DNA from: Pseudomonadota bacterium
GTDB lineage: Bacteria > Bdellovibrionota > UBA1018 > CAIMNF01
Length of the DNA stretch: 64,000 nucleotides
Assembly: GCA_027491115.1 (NCBI GenBank)
Contig: JAIXWV010000034.1
Span: forward strand, 62,001-126,000
Reading direction: 5' to 3'
Below the pieces are notes generated by a model. It was given only the letters and a program-made list of their open reading frames with translations, had not been told where the DNA came from and searched no databases. Position numbers and translations under genes: made by a program. Positions 21,072-37,698 of this stretch are shown here, piece by piece (within the stretch, counting starts at the first letter, position 1; each line of letters opens with the position of its first letter).

Positions 21072-22055
21072 TCAGAAATCTTTTCTGAACACCCCGTAGC
21101 GGTGTTCCCAGATCTGAAACGCCTCACCCCGTTTGAGAAGGTGTTCGCTTTGAGCTCCGTTCCGGATCAAGGCCGACACCACTCGAGTGATTCCGTTACG
21201 GGATGCGAGGGTGAGTGCGTGATGGATTCCGAAAGCCGCCAGCCCAGCCCCCTGGTATTCGGGCAAAATCGCCAAAGTCTTCCACACCAGGTATCCGGAC
21301 TCTGGAAAAAGAAAGAAATATCCAATTTCCTCGCCTGAAGGATTCAGGATGAAGAAGCTGAACTCGCTCAATAATGTGGCGAATCTCGGCGCGACCAACT
21401 CCTGGTAAGCCCGGTCATCAAAAGGCTCTGCGAGAAAACTCTGTTCGAAGCTCCCGGCATTGATCCGGGTCAGGGCAGTCAAATCACGGCTGCGGTTTGT
21501 GGCAAAATCGAGGGGACGGACAGAGAACCCTTTGGCCAGGGCCTGATCGAAGCGATCCTGGGACTTCGGTAGAATCCGGTCGAGATGGTGATACCCGCGT
21601 GAATGATACTCTTCGACCAGGTCGAAGCCCGCACGTCGAAACCAATCCACATGACTGGCGGGCTGGGAAGGTTCCCAAAAAAATTCCGGTGGAGCCTCGG
21701 ATCCGGGACCGTCCTCCAGACGCAAGCGGTAATCAAAAAGGGTATGGTAATTGACCGGTCCATGAACCGTCCTGACCCCACGATCCCTGAGCCACAGAGT
21801 GGCCTGCTCGATCAAAGAAAGGGCCCGCTGCTCTGCGCCGGACGCTGATGGATCACAATCGAAGAAACCGATGTACCCGGCTTCGGGGTTTCTCGAGGAA
21901 ACATTCGCCGAGATCCGCCCGAGAATCGCACCGCCTTCTCCCTCGTCGATGAAATGAGCCCGATCGAATCCGAACGGAAATCCGAGGATTTTTTTCTCGA
22001 AATCCGTCTTCGCAAAACGTTTTTGCAAATCCTCAATCCGGACTTGAAGGATCAT
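21072..22055 (-). CDS. GNAT-family N-acyltransferase, last gene of the six-gene cluster
   Basis: 327 residues from an ATG at 22055 in an ATGA overlap with the dikinase gene. The C-terminal half has the GNAT acyl-CoA fold: a strand-turn WKTLAILPEYQGAGLAAFGIHHAL with the Q/RxxGxG/A pyrophosphate loop. The first half (GYIGFFDCDPS, GPVNYHTLFDYRLRL, SHVDWFRRAGFDLVEEYHSRGYH) resembles larger two-lobe GNAT proteins of the YghO type. In the cluster it would acylate an amino group, for example the amine produced by the BtaA-like enzyme. Bacterial ceramide synthase has also been described as a GNAT-like enzyme, so lipid N-acylation is possible. The substrate is inference. Confidence 0.8.
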   Translation of the reverse strand: MILQVRIEDLQKRFAKTDFEKKILGFPFGFDRAHFIDEGEGGAILGRISANVSSRNPEAGYIGFFDCDPSASGAEQRALSLIEQATLWLRDRGVRTVHGPVNYHTLFDYRLRLEDGPGSEAPPEFFWEPSQPASHVDWFRRAGFDLVEEYHSRGYHHLDRILPKSQDRFDQALAKGFSVRPLDFATNRSRDLTALTRINAGSFEQSFLAEPFDDRAYQELVAPRFATLLSEFSFFILNPSGEEIGYFFLFPESGYLVWKTLAILPEYQGAGLAAFGIHHALTLASRNGITRVVSALIRNGAQSEHLLKRGEAFQIWEHRYGVFRKDF

Positions 22056-24775
22056 AAGATTCGAACCTCCCCTTTTCCGGCATCGATCCTCACCCTTTGC
22101 CCCGTTTTCAAGCGTTTCATCAGGCCTCCTGAAATACCCACAATCGTAGGAAGCCCCAACTCGCGAGCAACGACTGCCGAATGGGACAGCAAAGAGCCTC
22201 GTTCGATCAAAAGACCTGAACACGAAGGATAAAGAGGAACCCAGCCGGGATCGGTGCGGGAGGTAACCAGGATCTCGCCTTGAAGATTCTCCGTGTCTTT
22301 CAGTTCGTGTGCTACCCGGACCACGCCCTCCACCACTCCTGGACAGCAGGGAGTTCCATACAGGAAGTTCGGATCATGATTTTTCGACTCCAGTTCCCTG
22401 AGGAGATCGCCCCCGTCCAGAACGGCCGGATAAGCCTCGGACAAACCGACCGCTCCATAGGTGACAAAACGGTCCGGTGGTGCCGGAGTTCGCTTGTACT
22501 CCTCGAATACCGGCTTCCGGATGCGGACCAGATCCCGCAATGAATGGGTGGGCAAACGCCCTTCCACGAATGCGATGATTTCTTCGACCGTCAGGAAAAA
22601 CACCTCGAACTCGTCATCCAACAAGCCGAGTTTCACAAAATTCCCGCCGACAGCACGCATGAGATGACGGACCAATCCGTAACTCTTCGTCCGGTCGAAG
22701 CGGAGATCTTCACGGTTCCTGACAGCATTTCGGGCATGACGGAGCACCCAGAAATAAGTCCAACGTCTGGGCCCAATCAGTTTTTCCCTTACTCTCAGCT
22801 CTGCGCCTTCACGGATCTGCCTCTCACGGACTTCCATGGCCTCGATCGAATAAGACTTCATCCGGACATAGCTGGCGACATTCCCCACTACAAATGCCGG
22901 ATCATCATGCAGATCCCGTTCTTCGAACTTGAGCTCGTTGACACAGCGGAATCCGTATCGATCGAGAAATTGCATGAAGCGGGAATGAATGCCCGGACTC
23001 ACCGAGGGAAGGGACTTCCAAACATTCTCTGCCGGACCGGAGAGGAAAGTTTCCCTGAAGGAAGGGTCGCCTTCGTCGATTTCACGCGCAATCCGCATCA
23101 GCCACTTGGTCGGCTCGGTACTCTCGAGATCCCCTTGCCCGCAAAGCAGGTCATTCTGCAGACTCGCCCCGGCATCTCCGGACTCGACCCACTTCGAAGT
23201 GAGAGACTTAAGCACTCCGAAGAAAACCATACAAAGGAAATCGTTCACAATGGGAGCCTGCCAGCGCGGCAGAATCTCTCTTCGCAGGAATAAAAAATAA
23301 TCGATCTGTCTGGGAAGATCCCAGGATCTGAAGTTTTCCTTACGACCCGCCTCGTACAGCCTGTTGAAGTGGGTTTTGAACTCACGGATGATGGTCGGAC
23401 TGCGCCAAAACCTCAGTATCGAAACGGCGAGGAGCTGGATCTTGAGGACGATCCCATAGTCCGGACGGTCTTTCACAAAATCAAAAATCCTCTGATGCTC
23501 GCTCGAAAGACTTTTTTTAACGCCCATCATGGTTTCCATGAATGCGGGGTTGTTTCCAGAGCCCGGCATGATCATGAGAAGGCGGTACCAGTTGATCAGA
23601 TTGTAATAGATCCGGCCCCGGATGAGACCGAGCATGTTCTGGAGTCGCTGGTCATTCTCCATGAGAATTTTCTCGGGCACTTTCATCATCCTGGCGAATT
23701 GGAGATAAACCTGGTGGTAGGCATGACTCGCATAAGAGAACGTGAACGGAGAAGTCACGCCGCTGTAGCTTTCAATGATATTGGAATTGTCCCAGAGTGT
23801 CGCCGCTTTGCCGTTCACGGAAGGGTCGAAAAAACTCTCAGGAGGCAGTGAGGTCACCGGCCTCATCTGGAGGAAATACAAACGTCCTCCGGCCAGGGCC
23901 CACTCGATGTCCTGGGGAGCCCCTCCGGCGAGCTGTTCGAGTTCCAAGGACCGTTGTCGCAACTCCTCGAGTTCCTCCGGAGAAAGCACCTGGCTGCGCA
24001 GTCGGTCAGCCGGGATTTCCACCCGGACCAGTCCTCCGCCCGTGTTTCTGCGGAATTCGTGGGTGTGCTCTGCACGTCGGTGGAGAAGAACCTGACCCCC
24101 GTCACGGTGGATCCTGAAATGATCCCCTTCGAGCGCCCCTCCCACCAAACCCTCACCCTGGCCGTACACGGCCTCGATGACCATGGAATCGCGATCCAAT
24201 GGAGCGGACGGATCTCTCGTGAAGAGAACACCGGATCGATCGGAGTCGATCATTCTTTGGATCACCACTCCCATCCTGGGAAGTGCCGTGGAAATTCCTC
24301 TTTCCAAGCGGTAACGAAGTCCACGCTCAGAGAAGGCCGATGCCCATGCCTTCCGGATGGAGAGAGAGACCTGGGGGATTCCCTTCTGGAACAAATAACT
24401 GGAAAACAACCCCGCAAAAGAATGGTCTTTTGAGTCCTCATCGAGGCCACTGGATCTGACTGCGAGATCCTCATCCAACCAGCCGAGGGCACGCAGGCGC
24501 TCCTCGAGTTCCCTCTCGAAGGAGGCCAGAAGAGGATGGTCCGAGAACCACTTCAGGACGAGCTCCTCCGTTTCCCTCCCGGGGACGAGACCTGACACCT
24601 TCGCTCTCAATCCATGATGGTCCAGGTACTCATCGAACACCGGACTCGGCACGCAAAACCACTCGGGAACGGGTGTTCCGGCCCTGGTCAGCACGCCCAA
24701 TTGGGCGGCCTTGCCGCCACCAAACAGACGGAAATCAGAGTCGGCATTTCTTGAATCCAACAAACGGGTGTTCAT
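22052..24775 (-). CDS. Rifampin-phosphotransferase / PEP-synthase-like dikinase
   Basis: 907 residues. N-terminal ATP-grasp domain (about 1-320: GGGKAAQLGVLTRAGTPVPEWF, AVRSSGLDEDS, QDIEWAL...YFLQMRPV), a long helical middle region (about 320-800), and a C-terminal swivelling phospho-histidine domain with His865 in SLLSHSAVVARELGLPTIVG. This order is that of rifampin phosphotransferase, in which ATP's beta-phosphate is passed via the histidine to a hydroxyl of a small molecule held by the middle domain; classical PEP synthase instead carries a PEP-binding barrel at the C-terminus, absent here. In an operon with a ligase, P450 and UbiA-like enzyme it probably phosphorylates a pathway intermediate rather than an antibiotic. 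ATGA overlaps join it to both neighbours. Confidence 0.82.
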   Translation of the reverse strand: MNTRLLDSRNADSDFRLFGGGKAAQLGVLTRAGTPVPEWFCVPSPVFDEYLDHHGLRAKVSGLVPGRETEELVLKWFSDHPLLASFERELEERLRALGWLDEDLAVRSSGLDEDSKDHSFAGLFSSYLFQKGIPQVSLSIRKAWASAFSERGLRYRLERGISTALPRMGVVIQRMIDSDRSGVLFTRDPSAPLDRDSMVIEAVYGQGEGLVGGALEGDHFRIHRDGGQVLLHRRAEHTHEFRRNTGGGLVRVEIPADRLRSQVLSPEELEELRQRSLELEQLAGGAPQDIEWALAGGRLYFLQMRPVTSLPPESFFDPSVNGKAATLWDNSNIIESYSGVTSPFTFSYASHAYHQVYLQFARMMKVPEKILMENDQRLQNMLGLIRGRIYYNLINWYRLLMIMPGSGNNPAFMETMMGVKKSLSSEHQRIFDFVKDRPDYGIVLKIQLLAVSILRFWRSPTIIREFKTHFNRLYEAGRKENFRSWDLPRQIDYFLFLRREILPRWQAPIVNDFLCMVFFGVLKSLTSKWVESGDAGASLQNDLLCGQGDLESTEPTKWLMRIAREIDEGDPSFRETFLSGPAENVWKSLPSVSPGIHSRFMQFLDRYGFRCVNELKFEERDLHDDPAFVVGNVASYVRMKSYSIEAMEVRERQIREGAELRVREKLIGPRRWTYFWVLRHARNAVRNREDLRFDRTKSYGLVRHLMRAVGGNFVKLGLLDDEFEVFFLTVEEIIAFVEGRLPTHSLRDLVRIRKPVFEEYKRTPAPPDRFVTYGAVGLSEAYPAVLDGGDLLRELESKNHDPNFLYGTPCCPGVVEGVVRVAHELKDTENLQGEILVTSRTDPGWVPLYPSCSGLLIERGSLLSHSAVVARELGLPTIVGISGGLMKRLKTGQRVRIDAGKGEVRIL

Positions 24776-25665
24776 GAGCGGATACCCCCGATTGACTGTA
24801 GCAAGTCTTGCAAGGGCAAGGCCCAGAGGGCCAAGAGTAAATAAAGAGTCACGAGTCCTTCAACAGTTTTGAACTTGGACGGCGCCCACCAGAGGAGACT
24901 GGAGCCCGCCAGGATCAGGATGTACAGAGGTCCAAGGATCGATGAAATTCCGAGATGGTTTGCCGCATGCGTGGAAACACCGAGCAAGACCAGAAGAAGG
25001 AAAACGGTCTTTTCCCTTCCGTATTCACGTAGGTAGGTGCGAAGCACCGGGTGAGCCTTGGGATCGAGTTTCCGCCCTACCTCGAAGCCGAAAAAGGCTC
25101 CTAAAAGCAGGGTACAGAACCAGAATCCTCGAAGGTCACTCCAGGGACTCTGAAAACAAGAAAGGACGAAATACCCGAGTGGAAAGATGATGACCTGATG
25201 GAGGATGGCATAAAGCAAGGGCCTCCGGGCCAACGCATCTCCGAAATAGAACTCGACGAACATCAGATGCAGGTAGAACACTCCGAACCCGAACAAAATT
25301 GCAGCGGGCATTCCGCCTGCAACAGCGGCAGCCCCGGTCCAGAGGATCATCGCCCACTGAAACCGACGGACGAAAGCCTTGAACTCATCCAGGCGGAAAA
25401 GACCGCGAGGTAGCGGCCTTTCCGGATGGGCGATCTTGTCTTTCTCGAAATCCTTGGTCTCATCCATCAACCGGAGCTGCATGAGAAAGAGCATGCCTCC
25501 GATCAGTGCGACGGCAAAAGAGACTGTGAAGGAGACAGGCCCGGACTGATCGACCCCTTGGATCAAGGCCAATCGCCTTGAAGACTCCACAATTCCGAGT
25601 GCCACCAACAAATTGGGAATCAGAGGAAAACGCTCCTTGAAATAGACTGACCAACGCGAATTCAT
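24772..25665 (-). CDS. UbiA-like membrane prenyltransferase-family protein
   Basis: 297 residues with about eight or nine hydrophobic helices. The first Asp-rich motif of UbiA enzymes is recognisable between helices 2 and 3 (acidic residues 68, 69, 72 and 76 in RLMDETKDFEKD, followed by HPERPLPRG). The second motif is degenerate: FEVGRKLDP around residues 190-200 replaces the usual DxxxD-type sequence. UbiA enzymes join prenyl diphosphates to aromatic or lipid acceptors; divergent members may only carry or bind hydrophobic molecules. It overlaps both flanking genes (ATGA), so it belongs to the cluster. Substrate unknown; family assignment good, activity uncertain. Confidence 0.78.
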   Translation of the reverse strand: MNSRWSVYFKERFPLIPNLLVALGIVESSRRLALIQGVDQSGPVSFTVSFAVALIGGMLFLMQLRLMDETKDFEKDKIAHPERPLPRGLFRLDEFKAFVRRFQWAMILWTGAAAVAGGMPAAILFGFGVFYLHLMFVEFYFGDALARRPLLYAILHQVIIFPLGYFVLSCFQSPWSDLRGFWFCTLLLGAFFGFEVGRKLDPKAHPVLRTYLREYGREKTVFLLLVLLGVSTHAANHLGISSILGPLYILILAGSSLLWWAPSKFKTVEGLVTLYLLLALWALPLQDLLQSIGGIRS

Positions 25666-27059
25666 CGACTTGCTCCTCGATCGATGCGGGAGCGGTGTCT
25701 CCGGTCCCGGACGATCCTGGTTTCTAATACGGATTGGATCTCGGCGAATCGTCGGAGGATCTCCGCCGCCCGCGATTGAAGCCCCTCACCCCTCAGGACA
25801 AAACGCCCTGACGCGGGATCTTGCTCGACATGAGCTGCACTGTGACCGAGATGGGTGTAGATCCTCTGCTCGAGTTCGAAAGTCTGAAGGGACTGGAAAC
25901 TCCGGCCCTGATACCACAATCCTGATTCGTCTTCGGATACCCGATCACCCATGAAATGCCAGATTCTACCCGAAGAATCCTCACGTTTGTGATGGAGTGA
26001 TTCCTTCTCGTTCCCGATGTACCGCTTGCAAACGTGATCTCCGGTGACCCAGAGACCCTCCGGACTCAAGGAAGTCTCCACCCCTTCAGCCGGCTTGCCG
26101 ACATACAGGGTCTGGAAAAAACCTCTTTCACGACTGAGTCGGACGGCCACCTTGGCATCAGAAAATGCGACCGGCTCGGCCTCAGTGCTCCCGTAAACAT
26201 GCAAGAATCTTGTCCCGGGCACGAAATGATCGAACGCCGTTTCAAACAGCGCGCAATCACTCAAGGCTCCTCCCACATGAATCGATCGCAATTCACGAGC
26301 GACATTCGCCTCCATGAGCCGCTTCAGAAAAGCAGGGCCAGTGCTCAGGGTTTCGGGGCGCCATTCCGGTGGGAGGTCGGACAATCGCTCCAGGTGCTTT
26401 TGTTTCCAGCGGGGTGGAACGAAGACCGTTCCCCTGCCCATCCCGAGGTTGGCAAGCACCAGATTCGCAAAAACAGCCAAATCCGGCCGCTTGAAATCCT
26501 CAAATCCGCCGGAAATCCGTATGGCGTCATTTTGGGCACTGAGACCTTCATGAGTCCGGACCACACCCTTCGAACGCCCCGTGGTCCCTGTGGTGAATGT
26601 GACCACACCCGGATGTCCGGCTGGAACCTGCACCGAGGGTATCCTCGTAATTCGGGTTGAATCCGAAGGCCCCCGGCAGAGCGAACGCGCCGAACCCCAC
26701 GAAGGAATCCTCCGGATCGCGCCGGACCTGCCTCCCCAGAGTTTCCCCATGAATGAGGCGATGAAGAGTCGGGGCCGCATCATCGAAACAACAGAGTCGA
26801 TCTCGGACAAGGGCAAAAAGGGCTCCACCAGGAAGACCGTCACGCCACGACTGAGGAGGGCCATGATCACCGCATAAAACTCGACTGACACGGAGTCTGC
26901 GAGAAGGACGGAATCCCCGAGCCCGATGCGAGCGCGATCCAGGTTGCGCTCGGCATTCCGTGCCAAGGAAAGCATGGTTCCAAAATCAGAGGGAGCTCCG
27001 TCCAAAGGAAAAAAGGCGGGTGCACGGGGAGGAATCTCCCGCTCCCAGAGCAACTCCAT
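25662..27059 (-). CDS. Adenylate-forming (AMP-dependent) ligase
   Basis: 465 residues from the ATG at 27059 (an in-frame start at 27080 would add seven). The ATP-binding loop GVVTFTTGTTGRSKGVVRTH, the HVYGSTEAEPV motif and GDRVSEDESGLWYQGR are present, so it makes an acyl-AMP. The protein is shorter than most acyl-CoA ligases (about 500-560). Its C-terminal lobe ends in RDRRHRSRIDRG, reminiscent of the RHNAKI segment of OleC-type enzymes, but with Arg where the catalytic Lys would sit. That could mean altered thioester or beta-lactone chemistry, or only adenylation. It lies between the P450 (about 31-nt gap) and UbiA genes (ATGA overlap). Confidence 0.8.
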   Translation of the reverse strand: MELLWEREIPPRAPAFFPLDGAPSDFGTMLSLARNAERNLDRARIGLGDSVLLADSVSVEFYAVIMALLSRGVTVFLVEPFLPLSEIDSVVSMMRPRLFIASFMGKLWGGRSGAIRRIPSWGSARSLCRGPSDSTRITRIPSVQVPAGHPGVVTFTTGTTGRSKGVVRTHEGLSAQNDAIRISGGFEDFKRPDLAVFANLVLANLGMGRGTVFVPPRWKQKHLERLSDLPPEWRPETLSTGPAFLKRLMEANVARELRSIHVGGALSDCALFETAFDHFVPGTRFLHVYGSTEAEPVAFSDAKVAVRLSRERGFFQTLYVGKPAEGVETSLSPEGLWVTGDHVCKRYIGNEKESLHHKREDSSGRIWHFMGDRVSEDESGLWYQGRSFQSLQTFELEQRIYTHLGHSAAHVEQDPASGRFVLRGEGLQSRAAEILRRFAEIQSVLETRIVRDRRHRSRIDRGASR

Positions 27060-27090
27060 GGTGTTCCCTTGTCGGCTCACGTCCTGCTCC

Positions 27091-28425
27091 TCAACCGACC
27101 CGCCTGACCAAGCGAAGCATCAGAGGCCGCTTCATTCCGAGTGTGATCTGGTAGTCGCTTTCAGTCCGATGACCCGGAGCGGGTTCGAGCCTCCAGGCCT
27201 GGAGGATGCGGATCAGGATCAGCTTGATTTCAAGGAGTGCGAAATGGCGCCCAACGCAGGTCCTTGGCCCCATCCCGAATGGAAAAAAAGCGAGCTTGTT
27301 CTTTTCACGAAGTTCAGGAGTCCAACGGTCTGGATCGAAATCATCGGGACGATCCCAAAACCGGGGGTGACGATGAGTGAGGTAAGGAGAGAGGTAAAGA
27401 ATGGATCCGGGGCGGATCCGTCTTCCGCCGATCTCGTCCTCCTCGAGAGCGCGTTTTGTCCACGCCCAAACCGGCGGATGGAGCCGCAAGGCCTCGTCCA
27501 CCACTGCGTCCAAGAACGGCATATCCATCGCTTCTTCGGCACCCGGAATCTTCTGACCGACCCGTTGGTCGATCTCATTAACCAAACGCTTTTGGTGGAG
27601 GGAATGGACGGCAAGCTCATGCAGGATCCAAGGAATGAGATGTCCCGTCGTCTCGAATCCGGCCAGCATCATCGAAACGGCCTCGTCACGCAATTGGGAA
27701 GAGTCCATCCCCTCCCCGGTGGCCGGATCACGGGCCAACATCATCTTGGTCAGGAGATCCTCACCGGGCGTTCCGGAAGCCGACTCGGACGACTTTTGTC
27801 CGATCAAGTCCCAGACCGTGCGATCAATGGTCCTGAGAGCTCCATGAAACCGGATGTTCGACGGAGTCGGAAAAGACATGGGGACAGGCAACAACGCCCC
27901 GAAACGCCGGGTCAGGTAGCGGTTGATGTAGACCATGGCCTGTCGAAGGGCTGTGAAGTCATCTGCTGGTCTTGACCCGAAGAGCGCCTCACAAACAATT
28001 TCAAATGCGAGACGTTTCATGGACTCACTCAATTCAACCGGTAAATGATCCACTGTACGGAACGCTTCGAGAGTTACTCCGATCTTCCGGTTCATGTCAT
28101 CCACCATTTTCAGCAAGTTGCCATGATGAAAAGTGGGAGCGATGAGCCGTCTCTGCTTCTTCCACTTCTCGCCTTCGCTCATGAAAATCCCGTCTCCGAC
28201 GACTGCTCGGAAGTTCGAGGCTTTGACGTAGTTCCGAGCATTCTTCATTTCAACGCGATGGACATCTTCCGGATGGGCGACCAAGATCAGCGAATGCGGC
28301 CCCAGACGGAACTGCACCAGATCTCCATAACTTTCCCTGAGTTTCTTCAGAAACCCGATCTTGTCGAGACGGTACTGGTGCAAATTCCCGATCCACGGGA
28401 GTCCGGGTACGCTCACGGGATTCAT
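27091..28425 (-). CDS. Cytochrome P450
   Basis: 444 residues, ATG in an ATGA overlap with the BtaA-like gene; a longer in-frame start at 28788 would lie inside that gene. The I-helix AGFETTGH, the K-helix ExxR in DEALRLHPP, the PERF-like FDPDRW, and the haem-binding FPFGMGPRTCVGRHFA with Cys390 are all intact. The overall look (PGLPWIGNLHQY start, hydrophobic substrate region) recalls soluble fatty-acid or terpene hydroxylases of the CYP4/CYP110/CYP102 style. No reductase is fused or adjacent, so electrons must come from elsewhere. Within the cluster it likely hydroxylates a lipid or prenyl chain. Confidence 0.92.
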   Translation of the reverse strand: MNPVSVPGLPWIGNLHQYRLDKIGFLKKLRESYGDLVQFRLGPHSLILVAHPEDVHRVEMKNARNYVKASNFRAVVGDGIFMSEGEKWKKQRRLIAPTFHHGNLLKMVDDMNRKIGVTLEAFRTVDHLPVELSESMKRLAFEIVCEALFGSRPADDFTALRQAMVYINRYLTRRFGALLPVPMSFPTPSNIRFHGALRTIDRTVWDLIGQKSSESASGTPGEDLLTKMMLARDPATGEGMDSSQLRDEAVSMMLAGFETTGHLIPWILHELAVHSLHQKRLVNEIDQRVGQKIPGAEEAMDMPFLDAVVDEALRLHPPVWAWTKRALEEDEIGGRRIRPGSILYLSPYLTHRHPRFWDRPDDFDPDRWTPELREKNKLAFFPFGMGPRTCVGRHFALLEIKLILIRILQAWRLEPAPGHRTESDYQITLGMKRPLMLRLVRRVG

Positions 28426-29516
28426 GCCAGCATCCTTTCCAGAACTTCGATTTCGTACATTTGCATTCTCTCGCGTCCGATCGGCCCATGGAATTCGGGT
28501 GTGATGTCCCGAAACCCGTCTCTCACCAGACCCTCCGGGCGATGGAGGTAGTGACGCAATACCACGCGAGCACCGGGCAACAGTCCTTTTCCTATTCTTC
28601 GGAGGAATTCCTGCTCGACGGGTGGTTTGAAATAGGATGCCACGTTCGAAAACGACACGAAATCCACACCCCGTGTCTGTTCTATTCCGTTCACGAGATC
28701 CCCTTCCACCCATTCCGGTTCGATCCGGTTCAAAGCTTCCCGGGCTTCCAGGTAGATGTCCCGGTCGGTCTCCGGGGGCAAACCGCACGGAAAGCGGAGT
28801 TCCCCGAGCAGGGTCAATTGCAGGAAAAAGTTTTCCCGTACGAGCCCCTGGGAAAACAAGCGCTCGAAGGCCCGACTGTAGTAGTCCACGTATCCGACTC
28901 CTGTGTTATTCGTTGGAAAATCTCCCGAATAAAGAAGCGAATTGAAGGTCCGTGCATTTCCCGCCAAGGCAATGAGCGTCTTCCATCTCAAACCGCTCCA
29001 ATCTTCCCGGACCACTTCCGCCTGCTCGGCCGCATCAGTGCAGGCGAAGAGACGTTCGATCCTGTCGGACCCCAGAATCACCCGAGCCAGCTTTGAAAAA
29101 CCAATGAACGTGCGCTCCCAACGACCTTCCAACAGGGGTGAGCGGAATCCTGCGTTCCTCAGGCGGTCATCGAGAAAACGTCGACTCGCGGGTCTCAGCT
29201 CGAGATCCATGAAAACGGACTCCCGGTCCTCGGGAGAAAGCGCAGGTACTCCCGGATAGGAAAAGAAACGGAGGTAATCCGTGTGCTCGAGGCTCCGCAA
29301 CAAAGCCAACCGGAGTTCACAGAGAGCCAGCTGTGGGAACGAGAGATCAACCACGGTCAGGCGTCTCAATCCGCGTTTCAACAAAGGGATCACCCGTCCT
29401 CCGCTCCCGCAAACGACCCAGGCATGGGCGCAGGCATCGGGCAGCAGGCTCCGCTCCAGGAGAGTGTCCTCGTTGGTCAAGGTGTAATTCAAATCTCGGA
29501 AATATCGGCTCCCCAC
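28422..29516 (-). CDS. DUF3419 / BtaA-like 3-amino-3-carboxypropyltransferase-family protein
   Basis: 364 residues from a GTG at 29516. A TTG at 29570 would coincide base for base with the divergent permease start, and a plausible promoter ends 7 nt before the GTG. Family hallmarks are DLNYTLTNEDTLLE near the start, CGSGGRVIPLL (AdoMet-binding glycine loop), VVDLSFPQLALCELRLALLRSLEHTDYLRFFSY and the C-terminal DFVSFSNVASYF...GARVVLRHYL. BtaA enzymes move the aminocarboxypropyl group of AdoMet onto diacylglycerol to form betaine-lipid headgroups. No BtaB methyltransferase is adjacent. It is the first gene of the six-gene cluster, so the acceptor may be a cluster intermediate. Family confident, reaction inferred. 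Confidence 0.78.
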   Translation of the reverse strand: MGSRYFRDLNYTLTNEDTLLERSLLPDACAHAWVVCGSGGRVIPLLKRGLRRLTVVDLSFPQLALCELRLALLRSLEHTDYLRFFSYPGVPALSPEDRESVFMDLELRPASRRFLDDRLRNAGFRSPLLEGRWERTFIGFSKLARVILGSDRIERLFACTDAAEQAEVVREDWSGLRWKTLIALAGNARTFNSLLYSGDFPTNNTGVGYVDYYSRAFERLFSQGLVRENFFLQLTLLGELRFPCGLPPETDRDIYLEAREALNRIEPEWVEGDLVNGIEQTRGVDFVSFSNVASYFKPPVEQEFLRRIGKGLLPGARVVLRHYLHRPEGLVRDGFRDITPEFHGPIGRERMQMYEIEVLERMLA

Positions 29517-29523
29517 TGTCGAC

Positions 29524-29551
29524 AGAATAGAGCATTGACCGGTAAGTCCAA
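29524..29551 (-). promoter_or_regulatory. Candidate promoter of the six-gene cluster
   Basis: TTGGAC (29546-29551), 16-bp spacer, TATTCT (29524-29529), then 7 nt to the GTG at 29516. It lies in the 53-bp gap before the divergent permease and predicts a leaderless transcript for the whole operon. Confidence 0.4.
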
Positions 29552-29569
29552 ACCTGAAAATATGAGCCA

Positions 29570-32140
29570 ATGTCGGGACTTTTGCTTCTTTGCTTGCGCC
29601 AGATCCGCGTCAGGCCCTTACGTTCGCTCCTGACCCTCTTCAGTGTGGCGCTCGGTGTGGCCTTGTACACGTCCATCGACATCGTCAACTCCTCCACACT
29701 CATGAGTTTTCGTTCTGGAATCGAAGCTTTGAGCGGTAAAGCTCAACTTTCCATCCAGGGAGGTGAAAACGGTTTTGAAGAATCCGTCCTCGACGATGCC
29801 GCAAAGCTTCCAGAGGTTGGGGCGGCAGTCCCGCTGATCGAAACCCGCGTTTATTCGGGAACCGGAACACGGACCGAAACCTTGACCATTCTGGGAATCG
29901 ATCTGTTGAAAGAGAGTTCGGTCAGAGCCTATCAGGCCGATTCAGGAAATCTGCTCGATGATCCCCTCACCTTCCTCAATCAACCCGACAGCCTGATCCT
30001 GACCCGGGCTTATGCCGAGCACCACGGAATCAAAAAAGGAGACCGCATCCGATTGGCAACCGCCCACGGTTCCCGGAACTTCACGGTCAGAGGTCTTCTC
30101 GAACCGGAGGGCCCTGCAAAAGCTTATGGTGGGAACCTCGGCATCATGGATATCGACGGGGCCCGCTTCCAGTTCGGGAAGAACGGGAAGATTGACCGGA
30201 TCGATATCATTCCGCGGGAAGGCATTCCGGTCGACACCGTCCGTGAGGCCCTGAAACGACGCTTCGAGCCGGCGCTGGAAGTGGAAAGCCCCGCCACCCA
30301 GGCGGACGGAATGAGGCGTCTGGTGGAGAACTATCAGGCGCTCCTTCAGTTTCTTGGACTTCTTGCACTGATGGTCGGATTGTTTCTGGTGATGAATACC
30401 ACCACGATCGCGATTGCCGAGCGACGGAGGGAATTCGGGATCCTCCGGGCGCTGGGTGCTCCGACTTTCTCATTGCTGGTTATGTTGGTACTCGAATCCG
30501 TTCTTCTCGGACTGATCGGATCTTTTGCTGGGGTCATTCTGGGCAAGTTCGTGGCGGAAAAAACCTCTGCCCTCATGACCGGGGCCCTGTCACTCCAGTA
30601 CCTGATCCCGATCCACCTGGACCGTCTCTCGATCGGATGGGCCCAATGGACCAAAGGTGTCGGACTCGGAACAGGGGTCGCTTTCCTTGCCACACTGATC
30701 TCGGGTCGTGCAGCTCTCAAGATCCAACCTCTCGAAGCGGTGAAGGGAGCCCCTACCGGCATTCCCCTTTCCCATCCGCTCATCCCCTGGCTCGGATCCG
30801 GATTCCTTTTGTTGATCATGATGGATGCCAGGTGGGGATGGAGCAATCAGTTTGCGTGGTTCCGATCGCTGAATCCATTGTTCCTGATGCTCGGAGCTGT
30901 ACTGACCAGTCCGGCACTGGTCAGGCTCCTCATCCGTTTGATCCGGACCCTCGTTCCCTCACCCTCCATCCGCCTGGGTGCGGACCAGCTCCTCCGGAAT
31001 CCCCGCAGGACCGGAGGGAACATCATGGTATTGATGACAGGGCTCATGCTGGTGATCGTTCTCGCCCTCACCAACCAAAGCATCAAGCACAGCCTCAATC
31101 TCTGGTTCGACCGGACGCTCGCGGCCGATCTGGTGGTCTCTTCCAGCGGAAAGATCCTGTCATTTCAGGTCCAGCCGCTGGATGAGCGTCTCAAGACGGA
31201 AATCGAATCCCTGCCGGGAGTGGACAACTCTGGTGGGGGGGGTGCCACAGGACTTCGATACGTCAAACAACGCTATGAGGGTCATACCTTGGCCATCAAG
31301 GCGTTTGATCGGCCTCATCCTCGGGTCGGGGACCGGATCTTCGATCTCACGGAGGGGAATCCGGAGGATGTTTTCAAAGCATTCTTCGACTCGTCCAAGA
31401 ACTCGATTCTGGTTTCACAAAACTTCGTATTGAAATTCAAAAAACGCCCCGGTGATGAAATCGAACTCGCTACACCGACAGGACTCCGGAAGTTCCGCAT
31501 CGAAGGAGTGGTTGCCGAATTCACCAATCCCGAGGGTGTTTTTTATTTGAATCGGGATGTCTACCGTCGCTACTGGAAAGATTCGCTGATCTCTGGATTC
31601 TTTGTGATGGCCCGTCCTGGGGTGGATCCGGGACAGGTCCGCGAGATACTGGATTCCAACCTCGGCAAACAAAAAGGTCTGATGGCCACGCTCAATGCCG
31701 AGCTCGCACAAGAAGCCCGGACCATGGTCGATCAGAGTTTCGCATATACGCGAGCCATCGAAGCTTCTGCTCTTCTGGTCGGTCTGTTCGGCCTGTTCAA
31801 CACCCTGCTGATCTCGATTTTGGAGAGGCGACGTGAAATGGGTATTTTGCGATCGATCGGAATGACCCGGGCTCAATTGGTAAACATGGTCATCGGTGAA
31901 GGCCTCATCCAGGGCTTGGCCGGAGGAATCGTGGCAGTTTCCATCGGGGTGTTCGGCACCTATTTCTGGATCATGGGCACGGTCTCGTCCCTTCTGGGCT
32001 GGGTGTTGCACTTCTCCGCACCCCCCGAAGCGTTGCTCAGGACCGTGGGGTTCGGACTCGCAGTCGGAATCCTGGCAGGGGTGATTCCGGCCAAGATCAT
32101 CTCCAGACTCGAAATCCGTGACGCCCTCGAGTCTGAGTAA
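29570..32140 (+). CDS. FtsX/MacB-type ABC transporter permease (two FtsX domains, ATPase not adjacent)
   Basis: 856 residues. An N-terminal TM helix (LRSLLTLFSVALGVALY), a large periplasmic MacB-PCD-like domain, three TM helices (about 255-400), a second half repeating the plan (helix at about 480, periplasmic region, and three helices after 720). ERRREFGILRALGAP and ERRREMGILRSIGMT mark the two FtsX coupling segments. Such large permeases (YbbP-like) extract or move lipids or lipoproteins and need an ATPase partner, which is not beside it. It diverges from the six-gene cluster and precedes ceramidase and lipid-kinase genes, consistent with lipid export. A G8 run at 31235-31242 lies in the coding region. 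Confidence 0.85.
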   Translation: MSGLLLLCLRQIRVRPLRSLLTLFSVALGVALYTSIDIVNSSTLMSFRSGIEALSGKAQLSIQGGENGFEESVLDDAAKLPEVGAAVPLIETRVYSGTGTRTETLTILGIDLLKESSVRAYQADSGNLLDDPLTFLNQPDSLILTRAYAEHHGIKKGDRIRLATAHGSRNFTVRGLLEPEGPAKAYGGNLGIMDIDGARFQFGKNGKIDRIDIIPREGIPVDTVREALKRRFEPALEVESPATQADGMRRLVENYQALLQFLGLLALMVGLFLVMNTTTIAIAERRREFGILRALGAPTFSLLVMLVLESVLLGLIGSFAGVILGKFVAEKTSALMTGALSLQYLIPIHLDRLSIGWAQWTKGVGLGTGVAFLATLISGRAALKIQPLEAVKGAPTGIPLSHPLIPWLGSGFLLLIMMDARWGWSNQFAWFRSLNPLFLMLGAVLTSPALVRLLIRLIRTLVPSPSIRLGADQLLRNPRRTGGNIMVLMTGLMLVIVLALTNQSIKHSLNLWFDRTLAADLVVSSSGKILSFQVQPLDERLKTEIESLPGVDNSGGGGATGLRYVKQRYEGHTLAIKAFDRPHPRVGDRIFDLTEGNPEDVFKAFFDSSKNSILVSQNFVLKFKKRPGDEIELATPTGLRKFRIEGVVAEFTNPEGVFYLNRDVYRRYWKDSLISGFFVMARPGVDPGQVREILDSNLGKQKGLMATLNAELAQEARTMVDQSFAYTRAIEASALLVGLFGLFNTLLISILERRREMGILRSIGMTRAQLVNMVIGEGLIQGLAGGIVAVSIGVFGTYFWIMGTVSSLLGWVLHFSAPPEALLRTVGFGLAVGILAGVIPAKIISRLEIRDALESE

Positions 32141-32159
32141 ACCATGATCCATTTTGCCT

Positions 32160-32188
32160 TTGAATTCCGAATTCGAAGAGCTTAGGGT
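32160..32188 (+). promoter_or_regulatory. Candidate promoter of the ceramidase gene, 6 nt from ATG
   Basis: TTGAAT (32160-32165), 17-bp spacer, TAGGGT (32183-32188), 6 nt to the ATG at 32195. No Shine-Dalgarno site is present. Confidence 0.4.
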
Positions 32189-32194
32189 TTCATC

Positions 32195-32941
32195 ATGGAT
32201 TCACTCTATACAAACGCCAAACGCGAGTTCACCATTCAACCCGGTTGCCCCTGGTACGAAGCCCAGCAGGCGTATCAGCCGGCGAACGTGAATTGGTGCG
32301 AACCCACCCGTTGCTCCATCATCAACGAACCGGCCAATGCGTGGTCGAATCTCGGCTTTCTGATCGTCGGCGCAATCGTTTTGCAACGCCTTCAAGGAAC
32401 CCGTGAAAAAACCTTGTCCTATTTCGGATGGGTCGTGTTTCTGATGGGATTCTTCTCCTTCACCTACCACGCCACCAACAATTACCTGAGCCAATTCTTT
32501 GATTTCATCGGGATGTACCTGATGACCAGTTTTGTGATCGCCTTCCACTGGAGGCGCGTGGCCGGAAAAGACCCTCGCAGCCTGCTCACCCATTTCTGGT
32601 TCGTGTTCAGTGCGAACCTTGCACTTTTCATGGTCTTTGACATCATGGACATCGCTGTCCAACATACCGTCCTGCTGAACGTGATTCCATTGGCGGCCTT
32701 GGATCTCGTCGCCGGCTTCAAAGAAAAGCGCCTTGGACAATACCGGCATTATTGGGTGGCGTTGGTCCTCATGGTGATCGCCCAGGTCTTTTCGCAACTC
32801 GATTTGAAAAGGATCTGGTGCGAACCGGAGAATCTCTTTTTCCACGGACACGCAATTTGGCACGTGTTCGGAAGCTTCGGGATGCTGTTTTTGGGGCTTC
32901 ACCTGAAGTGGCTTCTGTCCCGCATTCCATCTAAAGCCTGA
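32195..32941 (+). CDS. Alkaline-ceramidase-family (CREST) membrane hydrolase
   Basis: 248 residues, seven predicted TM helices. It carries the conserved features of alkaline ceramidases: WCEPTRCSIINEPANAWSNL near the N-terminus, Ser51, His92 in FTYHATNN, Asp103 in FFDFIGMY, and the C-terminal metal-binding HGHAIWHVFGS (His217, His219, His223). These enzymes hydrolyse ceramide to sphingoid base and fatty acid in the membrane; other CREST members have different substrates. The next gene, 91 bp downstream, encodes a lipid kinase that could phosphorylate a freed sphingoid base, and the neighbourhood is lipid-rich. No serine palmitoyltransferase is in the window, so native sphingolipids are not proven; host or prey lipid could be the substrate. 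Confidence 0.85.
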   Translation: MDSLYTNAKREFTIQPGCPWYEAQQAYQPANVNWCEPTRCSIINEPANAWSNLGFLIVGAIVLQRLQGTREKTLSYFGWVVFLMGFFSFTYHATNNYLSQFFDFIGMYLMTSFVIAFHWRRVAGKDPRSLLTHFWFVFSANLALFMVFDIMDIAVQHTVLLNVIPLAALDLVAGFKEKRLGQYRHYWVALVLMVIAQVFSQLDLKRIWCEPENLFFHGHAIWHVFGSFGMLFLGLHLKWLLSRIPSKA

Positions 32942-32944
32942 GTT

Positions 32945-32964
32945 CATTGAATTCCATTGAATTC
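32945..32964. repeat. Tandem 10-bp repeat (CATTGAATTC x2)
   Basis: Two perfect adjacent copies of CATTGAATTC just after the ceramidase stop and about 30 bp before the lipid-kinase -35 box. It could be an operator or chance. Confidence 0.45.
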
Positions 32965-32994
32965 TCGGCGAGAGGTCTGAAAGTCAATCAGGGC

Positions 32995-33023
32995 TTGCCA
33001 AAACGCTGAATACCTGATAGGAT
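32995..33023 (+). promoter_or_regulatory. Candidate promoter of the lipid-kinase gene
   Basis: TTGCCA (32995-33000), 17-bp spacer, TAGGAT (33018-33023), 9 nt to the ATG at 33033. Confidence 0.4.
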
Positions 33024-33032
33024 CCGTCAGCC

Positions 33033-33941
33033 ATGCGTGACGAGATCGCCTTCTTCATCAACCAGGAGTCCGGATCGGGTGAAGCCCCGCTCGCTGCGGA
33101 CGCAGCAGCCAGCACTCTCGCAGGACTCACGATTCGCAAGAATCTTCCCCGGAGCTCGATCGATCTCACCCGCGCCTGTTCGGAACTCGACCCGGGTAAA
33201 ACACGTGCTGCTGTCGTCTTCGGTGGAGACGGAACCCAATCCTATGCTCTCCGCGGCCTCATCGAGAGCGGTATTCCGCTTTACCCCTTTCCCACCGGTA
33301 CGGCCAATGACCTCGCCCAGGATCAAGGCATCACTGGATGCCGGAGCCAGCTTGAAAAATTGCTCCACTCGGAATCGATCGAAGAAGTCCGGGTACTCGA
33401 AGTGAACGGCATCCCGTTCTCGACCGTCTCGGGAATCGGCATCGGCGCCGATCTTTGCGAAGAATACAATGAACTCAGAACCCGTCATCGGATGTTCAAA
33501 AAGGCATCCCAAAGGATGAATTGTGAGATCTATTCCGCCTTGGCCCTGAAGCACATCTTCAAGAACTGGGGCAAGGGACTCCAGGTCCGGATCACGCGCG
33601 GTGGACTGAGCGAGGAGCTGACTCTTTCCGCACTGATGATCTGCAATCAGGCGAATCTTGCTGGGAACCTCACGGTCGCTCCAGGACAAAGTAAACACTC
33701 GAGCACCTTCACTGTGCTCATTCACCCTGGGGTATGCGGAATGAAGACCGTTCGGGGACTTGGCTCCATGAAGTTCGGGAAAATTGATTCAAGTTTCATC
33801 ACCTACAAAACGGATCACATCCGGATCGAGTCCTTAAGTGGTGCGCCCATCACGGTATTCGGTGACGGCGAAATCCTGACCCGCAGCCCGGTATTGGAGT
33901 TTCGTGCTTTCCCGAAAAAATTGAGGGTTTTCCGCGCGTGA
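33033..33941 (+). CDS. Diacylglycerol/sphingosine-kinase-family lipid kinase
   Basis: 302 residues with the DAGK catalytic fold: VVFGGDGTQSYALRGL (GGDGT nucleotide loop at 64-68), YPFPTGTANDLAQ (second signature), and the C-terminal beta sandwich beginning around VSGIGIGADLCEEYNELR and ending FGDGEIL. YegS/BmrU relatives phosphorylate diacylglycerol or other lipid alcohols; eukaryotic sphingosine kinases share the same fold. Because the ceramidase-family gene lies immediately upstream, a sphingoid-base kinase role is attractive but not provable here. A soluble, peripheral cytoplasmic enzyme is expected. GTGA overlap with the following phospholipase-like gene indicates co-transcription. Confidence 0.85.
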   Translation: MRDEIAFFINQESGSGEAPLAADAAASTLAGLTIRKNLPRSSIDLTRACSELDPGKTRAAVVFGGDGTQSYALRGLIESGIPLYPFPTGTANDLAQDQGITGCRSQLEKLLHSESIEEVRVLEVNGIPFSTVSGIGIGADLCEEYNELRTRHRMFKKASQRMNCEIYSALALKHIFKNWGKGLQVRITRGGLSEELTLSALMICNQANLAGNLTVAPGQSKHSSTFTVLIHPGVCGMKTVRGLGSMKFGKIDSSFITYKTDHIRIESLSGAPITVFGDGEILTRSPVLEFRAFPKKLRVFRA

Positions 33942-34447
33942 AACCCGTGGCACCGCTCTCCCTTCTTGTCCTTTTACTGGCAGGATCGCCATCATCATGG
34001 AGTCAAGTCGGGCAGGACAGCCCCTTGCGGCCTTTCGAGACCGATTACTGCACGGGTTTCCCGGAAGGTACCCGTCAGGATCCAAAACTCTGGAAGCACT
34101 GTTGCGTAGAACACGACCTGCACTTCTGGGCTGGAGGCTGCCGGAACGCACGCCGTGCTGCAGATCGAAGAATCTATCAATGCATCCGTGATGCCGGCGC
34201 TCCCGGGATCGCTCGACTGATGTTTCTCGGAATCCGACTGGGCGGCCTTTCACCCATTAAATTCGAAAAAAGAAAATGGGGAAACGGTTGGAAAGACGGA
34301 CGTGGCGACTACCGCCCACTCACTCCGGGAGATCTCCCCTTGCTCGAGGCTGAGTTCCGCGCGAATCCGTCCCTTGACGTCACTCCCGAGATGTTCCGCC
34401 GCTTTCTGGAAACCCTTCAGGAAGATCTCAGGGAAGACAGGCAGTGA
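33938..34447 (+). CDS. Secreted phospholipase-A2-like protein
   Basis: 169 residues, GTG start overlapping the previous stop. Signal peptide 1-23 (LLVLLLAGSPSSWS). The mature part contains DYCTGFPEG and KHCCVEHDLHFW, matching the CCxxHD catalytic motif of secreted phospholipase A2 (Cys55, Cys56, His59, Asp60), then GGCRNARRAADRRIYQCI. The canonical calcium-loop glycines are not clear, so catalysis is likely but not certain. It would act in the periplasm or outside on phospholipids. Co-transcription with a lipid kinase and proximity to a ceramidase make a lipid-remodelling or lipid-scavenging set. Confidence 0.72.
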   Translation: MKPVAPLSLLVLLLAGSPSSWSQVGQDSPLRPFETDYCTGFPEGTRQDPKLWKHCCVEHDLHFWAGGCRNARRAADRRIYQCIRDAGAPGIARLMFLGIRLGGLSPIKFEKRKWGNGWKDGRGDYRPLTPGDLPLLEAEFRANPSLDVTPEMFRRFLETLQEDLREDRQ

Positions 34448-36087: not shown

Positions 36088-37611
36088 TCAGAAGCTGGGG
36101 TTGAGAAACCCAGTCGAGCCAGATCCACCAGAAGTCTTGTTCTGCACGTTGTGAACCTTATATCCGTCAGCAATATAACTATGGTCCCCGTCCGTGCTGA
36201 AATTGAACACCGTCTCGGAGTTCAAGACCGATTCCAAACTGTGGATCCTGAAACTACCATTCCTAGTCAAGAGGACGTCGCCTGGATTCATGCTCAAAAC
36301 AGCCAATCCTGGACTCTCTTTCGAGCTCAGAATCGGATTCAACGAACGCCAGCCACGGTCACTCAAGAAAGGATGCGAGTCAGTAAAGAAGGCCTTCCCA
36401 CCGTTAAATCCATATTTTAATCCACGATGAGCAATCTTGAAGAGCTTAGTCACAACATTGACTCCACCCCCCGTTCCGCGCACCCGGTCACCCATGCGGA
36501 TCTTCTCAATAGCTTTGAAGGAACCATCCGCCATTTCAATCTTGGTTCCCGCGATGAAACAGCCAGACCCGATGCCACCACTACCACCACCAGTGGTGCC
36601 GGTACCCCCACTGCTGTAACCAGACAGAGATATCGGGCGAGAAATCTGACCAGAAACGTTCGCACAACTAAACGTCAAAGTGGTCCCATAACTCATTGCC
36701 GATGTGGGAACTCCTGTAACACTTACGGAACAAGAGCCACCCGCTCCGAGATTAGTCCCGCAACTACTCGAGTTCAGATTGAAGACACTCACAGGAGATA
36801 ACGCGACAACACACCCAGTTGCCATGCCCGTACCGGTATTACTAAATGTGTAAGTTGCAGGCAAAGAGGTGTTGTTCAACAAAACGGCACCTAACGAGGT
36901 TCCAGTTGCTGGAGCAACAGAAAGAGCTGGAGTGAAGCTTGTGCTTGAACCACTGCCAGAACCTGTTGACGGGGTAGACGTCGGGGTAGACGAGGCACCC
37001 GAAACCCCCGTTACTGATACTTGAACAATGACTCCGGCTCCCGTGTTCGTACAACCGACCGTCAAGTTAGTCGTAAAGGTGTTTTGCGAGGGGGGAGTCC
37101 CACGGACTCCAAGCGAGCAAGACGCACCCGCAGCGATGGTCGACCCACAATTATTCGAGACAATATCGAAAACGGTCTCATTACTGAGTGTAGCCGTGCA
37201 CCCGGTCGCAGAGACAGAAGCGCTTGTGTTGCTTATTGTAAAGGTCGCAGAGCCCGGGGAACTTGCCAAGACCGTCACGTTTCCAAGACTCTGGGGATTG
37301 TTAGGACTGACAGACAAAGCCCCTCCTGATGCAGAGGGCGTCTTGGTGTAGCAGGAGTGGTTGGCTCCATTGTAGGCTACGACCACCAGGCTGCAATTAC
37401 CAGCACCCCAAGCCGAGGTACAGTTGGGCAAAGTAGGATAATAGGTGACTAAGGCATTCGAGGCGGAGCTGCAGGCACTTCCGGTAGAAGCACTTCCCAC
37501 CGCAGTGGAGGCATTCCCCGCAACCTGAGAAAGAACTGAACCTTGCTTCGCGCACCCTGCGAGCACCAACAACAAACCACTCAAAGCGAAACCGTGTATC
37601 CGTCCGGACAT
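36088..37611 (-). CDS. Repeat-containing lipoprotein ending in a Hint (intein/hedgehog-type) domain
   Basis: 507 residues from the ATG at 37611. Lipobox LVLAGC at the N-terminus. Two related Ser/Thr/Asn-rich domains of about 90 residues follow (each with a TFxxSNT strand, a TGC motif, VFNL/VFDI, a CGT/CGS motif and a GxSCS motif), separated by a TPTSTPSTGSGSGSS linker. After a Gly-rich hinge comes a Hint domain: Cys351 in GCFIAGTKIEMADG, the block-B TxxH as TDSH (410-413) and the C-terminal VHN (486-488). The residue after Asn is Val, not Cys/Ser/Thr, so cleavage is more likely than splicing. A short GS-rich tail follows. Probably a surface protein that releases or ligates its own C-terminus. 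Confidence 0.85.
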   Translation of the reverse strand: MSGRIHGFALSGLLLVLAGCAKQGSVLSQVAGNASTAVGSASTGSACSSASNALVTYYPTLPNCTSAWGAGNCSLVVVAYNGANHSCYTKTPSASGGALSVSPNNPQSLGNVTVLASSPGSATFTISNTSASVSATGCTATLSNETVFDIVSNNCGSTIAAGASCSLGVRGTPPSQNTFTTNLTVGCTNTGAGVIVQVSVTGVSGASSTPTSTPSTGSGSGSSTSFTPALSVAPATGTSLGAVLLNNTSLPATYTFSNTGTGMATGCVVALSPVSVFNLNSSSCGTNLGAGGSCSVSVTGVPTSAMSYGTTLTFSCANVSGQISRPISLSGYSSGGTGTTGGGSGGIGSGCFIAGTKIEMADGSFKAIEKIRMGDRVRGTGGGVNVVTKLFKIAHRGLKYGFNGGKAFFTDSHPFLSDRGWRSLNPILSSKESPGLAVLSMNPGDVLLTRNGSFRIHSLESVLNSETVFNFSTDGDHSYIADGYKVHNVQNKTSGGSGSTGFLNPSF

Positions 37612-37698
37612 AAACACCCCTCTCACCTTAGTTTATCGATTATCCGCCTATGAACAAGAACTATTCCATTCCACTAATTTGATTGTTTCCCAAAGTAA

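Follow-up and report, generated by a model that had tools for sequence, protein, structure and literature searches.

A probable insertion of an ACER-type ceramidase gene into an older membrane-lipid gene cluster of Bdellovibrionales

Three consecutive genes for lipid enzymes

The ORF list of the window (the whole stretch of DNA analysed, 64,000 nucleotides in length) contains three consecutive genes on the forward strand between positions 32195 and 34447:

32195-32941, + strand, ceramidase-family gene (PF05875), 248 aa, ATG start
33033-33941, + strand, lipid kinase gene (PF00781), 302 aa, ATG start
33938-34447, + strand, phospholipase A2 (PLA2)-like gene, 169 aa, GTG start

In the sequence GTGA, the stop codon of the kinase gene and the GTG start of the PLA2-like gene overlap. 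The family labels, the gene order and this overlap had been proposed in a sequence-only reading of the locus, and all were borne out by the ORF calls, Pfam matches, motifs and predicted folds. Comparison with two sister species gave dN values of 0.04-0.31 for the trio overall at near-saturated dS, with 0.04-0.08 for the ceramidase, 0.09-0.14 for the kinase and 0.18-0.31 for the PLA2-like gene, dS being near saturation for each. Since the genes are kept in both sister species with low dN at near-saturated dS, they can be taken as genuine genes, and an origin as chance ORFs is rejected. In the G000-G001 pair, the ceramidase had the lowest dN (0.044) among the four genes compared, and this gene is under strong purifying selection. 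Scans for promoters and terminators gave matches at chance level only.

The DNA preceding the trio encodes the following proteins:

29570-32140, + strand, FtsX/MacB-type (LolCE/ADOP-like) ABC permease, 856 aa, directly upstream of the ceramidase gene
28422-29570, - strand, DUF3419 protein of the BtaA-like aminocarboxypropyltransferase family (PF11899, 89.7 bits), co-occurring with the kinase
27091-28788, - strand, cytochrome P450 (PF00067, 290 bits); the listed ORF is over-long, homologues being ~445 aa
25662-27080, - strand, AMP-binding acyl ligase, OleC-related (PF00501, 73.6 bits; NCBIfam)
24772-25665, - strand, UbiA-type prenyltransferase-like membrane protein (NF010118, 54.6 bits)
22052-24775, - strand, PEP-synthase/PigC/RPH-like ATP-dependent phosphotransferase-type enzyme (PF01326, PF00391; NCBIfam)
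21072-22046, - strand, start approximate, GNAT acyltransferase, a distant paralogue of the bCerS type (genome search with a bCerS-type protein, E=3.7e-9; blastp, E 1e-11 to 1e-6)

For the DUF3419 gene, the TTG given in the ORF list is probably not the true start, which would lie ~50 bases further downstream. In the window, the conserved Bdellovibrionales lipid cluster occupies 21072-29570 on the reverse strand and 29570-34447 on the forward strand; in other families it also carries NAD-epimerase, PigE/acyl-ACP-reductase-like, formyltransferase and alpha/beta hydrolase genes. The presence of a DUF3419 gene in the linked cluster recalls BtaA and betaine-lipid synthesis. However, no BtaB-type partner was identified here, and the P450, UbiA-like, PEP-synthase-like and ligase genes are additional to that system. 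Further along the window, a gene on the reverse strand (36088-37626) encodes a repetitive surface-type lipoprotein with a terminal Hint/intein-like stretch (GCFIAGTKIEMADGS...VHN).

The first gene product resembles the alkaline ceramidase ACER3

The product of the first gene matched PF05875 with 64.4 bits (cut-off 32.5). A search of the PDB with the single sequence returned nothing useful; a profile found human alkaline ceramidase 3 (ACER3; 6g7o, E=1.8e-9) as its best match, with the catalytic residues and a WCE/WSN-type stretch aligned. The same structure was the top Foldseek match (E=1.4e-4, TMq 0.71) of the predicted seven-helix model, which had a pLDDT of 89.6. Residues S88, H92, D103, H219 and H223 are invariant across 25 ceramidase homologues, located in TM2, TM3 and TM7, and correspond to the SxxxH, D and HxxxH motifs that define the CREST proteins (PMC3146951). 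These are the predicted catalytic residues. In the region of the ACER Ca2+ site, W34, C35, E36 and W50-S51-N52 line up with the WCE and VSN of ACER3, while E45 is only partly conserved among the homologues.

Their counterparts in ACER3 serve in zinc binding, water activation and stabilisation of the oxyanion (PMC9436119). Because these residues are present here, the protein is likely to be a zinc amidase, with ceramide or another N-acyl lipid as its putative substrate. It shares with ACER3 and other CREST proteins the seven-helix membrane architecture, the SxxxH, D and HxxxH motifs and, as far as the alignment shows, the WCE and WSN-type N-terminal motif (residue roles from PMC9436119 and PMC3146951), although its identity to ACER3 is ~17%. 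The bacterial CREST members nearest to the ceramidases have been listed as hypothetical groups, their activity being unassayed at the time (PMC3146951).

A diacylglycerol kinase-type enzyme and an exported PLA2-like protein

The kinase matched PF00781 with 49 bits (cut-off 23.6) and carries the motifs GGDGT, FPTGTANDLA (PxGTxND) and a C-terminal DGE, which place it in the DAGK_cat/YegS-type superfamily. It is the only clear PF00781 gene that we found in the genome, the second match being an NAD-kinase-like protein. These motifs do not tell diacylglycerol from sphingosine as the substrate, no diagnostic sequence feature of sphingoid-base kinases being apparent. The dihydrosphingosine kinase dhSphK1 of P. 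gingivalis and CpgB of Caulobacter (PMC10331486) are likewise GGDG-motif lipid kinases, from bacteria that make sphingolipids. In a plasmid record of Parabacteroides distasonis (L217, 4822-7179), a DAGK-family gene directly adjoins, in divergent orientation, a serine palmitoyltransferase (SPT) gene. In our tree, whose sphingolipid-linked member was this Parabacteroides kinase rather than authentic dhSphK1 or CpgB, the trio kinases nest within the kinase clade of their own genus, and the kinase falls in a clade of Bdellovibrionota sequences associated with the DUF3419 cluster. This places it outside the group containing the SPT-linked Parabacteroides kinase, the latter being a long branch.

No match was found in Pfam or NCBIfam for the third protein, and a single-sequence PDB search with it gave nothing useful. 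Its N-terminus resembles a signal peptide and it is predicted to be exported. Among 13 homologues, a CCxEHD motif and an AD motif further along the protein hardly vary, and H59, D60 and D76 are invariant. By analogy with the group XIV PLA2s, we take H59-D60 to be the catalytic His-Asp pair and D76 the calcium-binding Asp. In a structural comparison of the predicted model (pLDDT 81), three group XIV PLA2s (Z ~7) were the sole matches above Z 5, the next reaching 4.8; Foldseek gave E ~3 with a probability of 0.44, and its 14-3-3 matches (probability ~0.1) were discarded as helical noise. The core helices and the HD motif are common to the group XIV enzymes of Tuber borchii (4aup), Sciscionella (7ygk) and Saccharothrix (8k1w), whereas identity is 14-18%, no Pfam match is obtained and additional C-terminal helices are present here. 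A secreted PLA2-like protein seems the best reading of the third gene, with moderate evidence from the fold.

Candidate genes for sphingolipid synthesis in the host genome

The host genome is a MAG of 2.55 Mb (98.7% complete) placed in Bdellovibrionales, and the named relatives sharing the kinase are Bdellovibrionales MAGs as well. Its SPT scored 425 bits against the Sphingobacterium SPT compared with 322 for the next enzyme class; among NCBIfam models the best match was NF047600, at 521.8 bits, below the cut-off of 640 for that model. SPT was found in 53 of the 58 relatives searched and is near-universal in the order. A route to the bacterial ceramide synthase (bCerS) through PF13480 led to a FemAB-like protein and was rejected in favour of the neighbours of SPT, which revealed a bCerS-type gene instead. 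A GNAT gene adjoins SPT both in relatives and on an Aureispira plasmid, and the bCerS-type GNAT of the host shows 44% identity to the protein encoded beside SPT in a relative and 36% to its Aureispira counterpart. In addition, a CerR-like reductase, whose gene adjoins an SDR gene, matches the SPT-adjacent oxidoreductase of Aureispira at 34% over the full length (E=1e-52). The bCerS and CerR assignments are thus made by homology to SPT neighbours elsewhere (the Aureispira plasmid and Bdellovibrionota relatives) and not to the tested Caulobacter enzymes.

With an SPT and candidates for both bCerS and CerR encoded in its genome, the host is likely to make sphingolipids. Both SPT and a phosphonosphingolipid are known from Bdellovibrio stolpii (PMC6148460). 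The sequence-only reading had called for a genome search for SPT and a bacterial ceramide synthase, which proved positive. One part of the circumstance that it had named as refuting its idea, a lack of sphingolipid genes in the organism, does not apply.

The kinase tracks DUF3419 rather than the ceramidase

The contiguous trio was found in 3 of the 58 genomes searched (G000, G001 and G007), all from close species, and on this ground we rejected a conserved three-gene operon. In five genomes of the same genus (G002, G004, G008, G009 and G011), the permease gene is followed by the kinase gene after a gap of ~52-66 bp, with no ceramidase gene between them. Across the genomes, ceramidase and kinase occurred together in 10, the ceramidase alone in 15 and the kinase alone in 9 (p = 0.40, shared ancestry ignored). 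By comparison, kinase and DUF3419 were found together in 17 genomes and singly in 2 each (17/19 genomes for each gene; p = 1e-10, phylogeny uncorrected). Many of the genomes in these counts are incomplete MAGs, and the two DUF3419 genomes scored as kinase-negative contain a weaker kinase match on the same contig, in G030 ~220 bp away. Across several families of the order, the kinase lies beside, or in one cluster with, the DUF3419, AMP-ligase, UbiA-like, PEP-synthase-like and bCerS-paralogue genes, in two arrangements. Outside the three trio loci, no kinase was seen beside ceramidase homologues within the flanks examined, and at another 30 PF05875 loci from the phylum the adjacent genes included no kinase either.

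PF05875 is present in 135 of 368 genomes of the phylum and in none of 14 control genomes. In a quick tree, the trio ceramidase shares a long branch with the copy from G016, apart from other copies of the same genus (SH-aLRT 88). At the G016 locus (L108, 6614-8520), a bCerS-family acyltransferase gene lies directly upstream of the ceramidase gene and overlaps it by 4 bases, possibly forming a make-and-break pair. This one locus is the sole direct genomic tie that we saw between the trio ceramidase lineage and N-acyl lipid synthesis.

Overall, ceramidase and kinase probably became neighbours recently and within a single lineage, the kinase and PLA2-like genes being components of a lipid cluster that is older. 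With the ceramidase probably inserted into that cluster in one small lineage, adjacency alone is no proof of a sphingosine-1-phosphate pathway. The earlier proposal that adjacency reflects coupling of the ceramidase to a sphingoid-base kinase is therefore not supported, the kinase being independent of the ceramidase and tied to DUF3419; the conservation of the trio, suggested as a check on it, went against it.

A probable role for the ceramidase in turnover of endogenous lipids

The gene identities, motifs, folds, neighbourhoods, selection and pathway genes are shown by the analysis; from them we infer all substrates, the direction of flux and the insertion itself in what follows. The explanation that we favour, and hold to be reasonably probable as a whole, is that the ceramidase gene was inserted into an older lipid cluster and acts in turnover of the cell's own ceramide or N-acyl lipid, while the kinase works for the DUF3419 cluster. 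On this view, Bdellovibrionales have a conserved membrane-lipid cluster, joined by the ABC permease in this genus, to which the kinase and PLA2-like genes belonged before the ceramidase arrived. Parsimony would place the insertion of the ACER-type gene, between permease and kinase, in the ancestor of the three closely related species. By reference to ACER3, H92, H219 and H223 would bind Zn2+, D103 would activate water and S88 would steady the oxyanion, so that the membrane-embedded enzyme could cut the amide of (dihydro)ceramide or a similar N-acyl lipid, setting free a fatty acid together with a long-chain amine. Given the SPT, bCerS-type and CerR-like genes of the genome, sphingolipid of the cell itself is the most likely substrate. 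The kinase, for its part, would most likely act on a lipid that the DUF3419 cluster makes or recycles, phosphorylating one of its hydroxyls, and the exported PLA2-like protein probably deacylates envelope phospholipids.

Alternatively, the ceramidase might act on ceramide of the cell itself or of its prey and release a sphingoid base, the kinase convert this base to a sphingoid-base 1-phosphate and the phospholipase remodel the same membrane. Such a pathway is possible, the adjacency of ceramidase and kinase on one strand in three species being its sole support, and it would be in keeping with the ceramide-synthesis gene set assigned by homology, with the sphingoid-base and ceramide kinases of related families in P. 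gingivalis and Caulobacter (dhSphK1 and CpgB; PMC10331486), and with the DAGK-family gene beside SPT in Parabacteroides. We nevertheless regard it as unlikely, given the genomes with one gene and not the other, the kinase-free flanks of ceramidase homologues elsewhere, the separation of the kinase clade from the SPT-linked Parabacteroides kinase and the association with DUF3419 in place of the ceramidase. We found no paper on a gene cluster of this type in Bdellovibrio.

A second alternative, which is not based on ceramide, is that the ceramidase was recruited to the DUF3419 cluster and hydrolyses its N-acyl lipid, the product of the bCerS-paralogue GNAT, for subsequent modification by the kinase and the DUF3419 protein. 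Such recruitment is possible because the trio species have other cluster genes next to the ceramidase and the GNAT is itself part of the cluster, and to this extent it counts against the explanation that we favour. The cluster combines this GNAT with an acyl ligase, an aminocarboxypropyltransferase-like protein and a lipid kinase, and the ceramidase has been kept between permease and kinase at its low dN. Most cluster-bearing genomes, however, have no linked ceramidase, and this possibility appears distinctly improbable. Use of the trio to digest prey or host membranes, which the affiliation of the relatives with Bdellovibrionales and the predicted export of the PLA2-like protein might suggest, is very improbable: neither the ceramidase, as an integral membrane protein, nor the kinase, which has no signal peptide, is a secreted attack enzyme, ceramides are absent from typical Gram-negative prey, and the kinase sits in a biosynthetic neighbourhood.

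Sphingolipid synthesis in bacteria is now well described, but we found no published account of bacterial turnover through an ACER-type ceramidase. As PF05875 is common in the phylum and SPT near-universal in the order, the question of ceramidase turnover in bacteria becomes testable. A more far-reaching idea, tentative and on balance doubtful, is that ceramide is made and broken in one bacterium, an ACER-type ceramidase having been recruited to a place beside a lipid kinase in a cluster with DUF3419 and bCerS-paralogue genes; the outcome would be either bacterial sphingoid-base phosphates or turnover of a Bdellovibrionales lipid of N-acyl, aminocarboxypropyl or phospho type that has yet to be described. 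As a lead, the DUF3419-kinase cluster is probably more original than the ceramidase. As a minor observation, a tandem pair of PF05875 ceramidase genes occurs at one other locus (L233, in genome G076).
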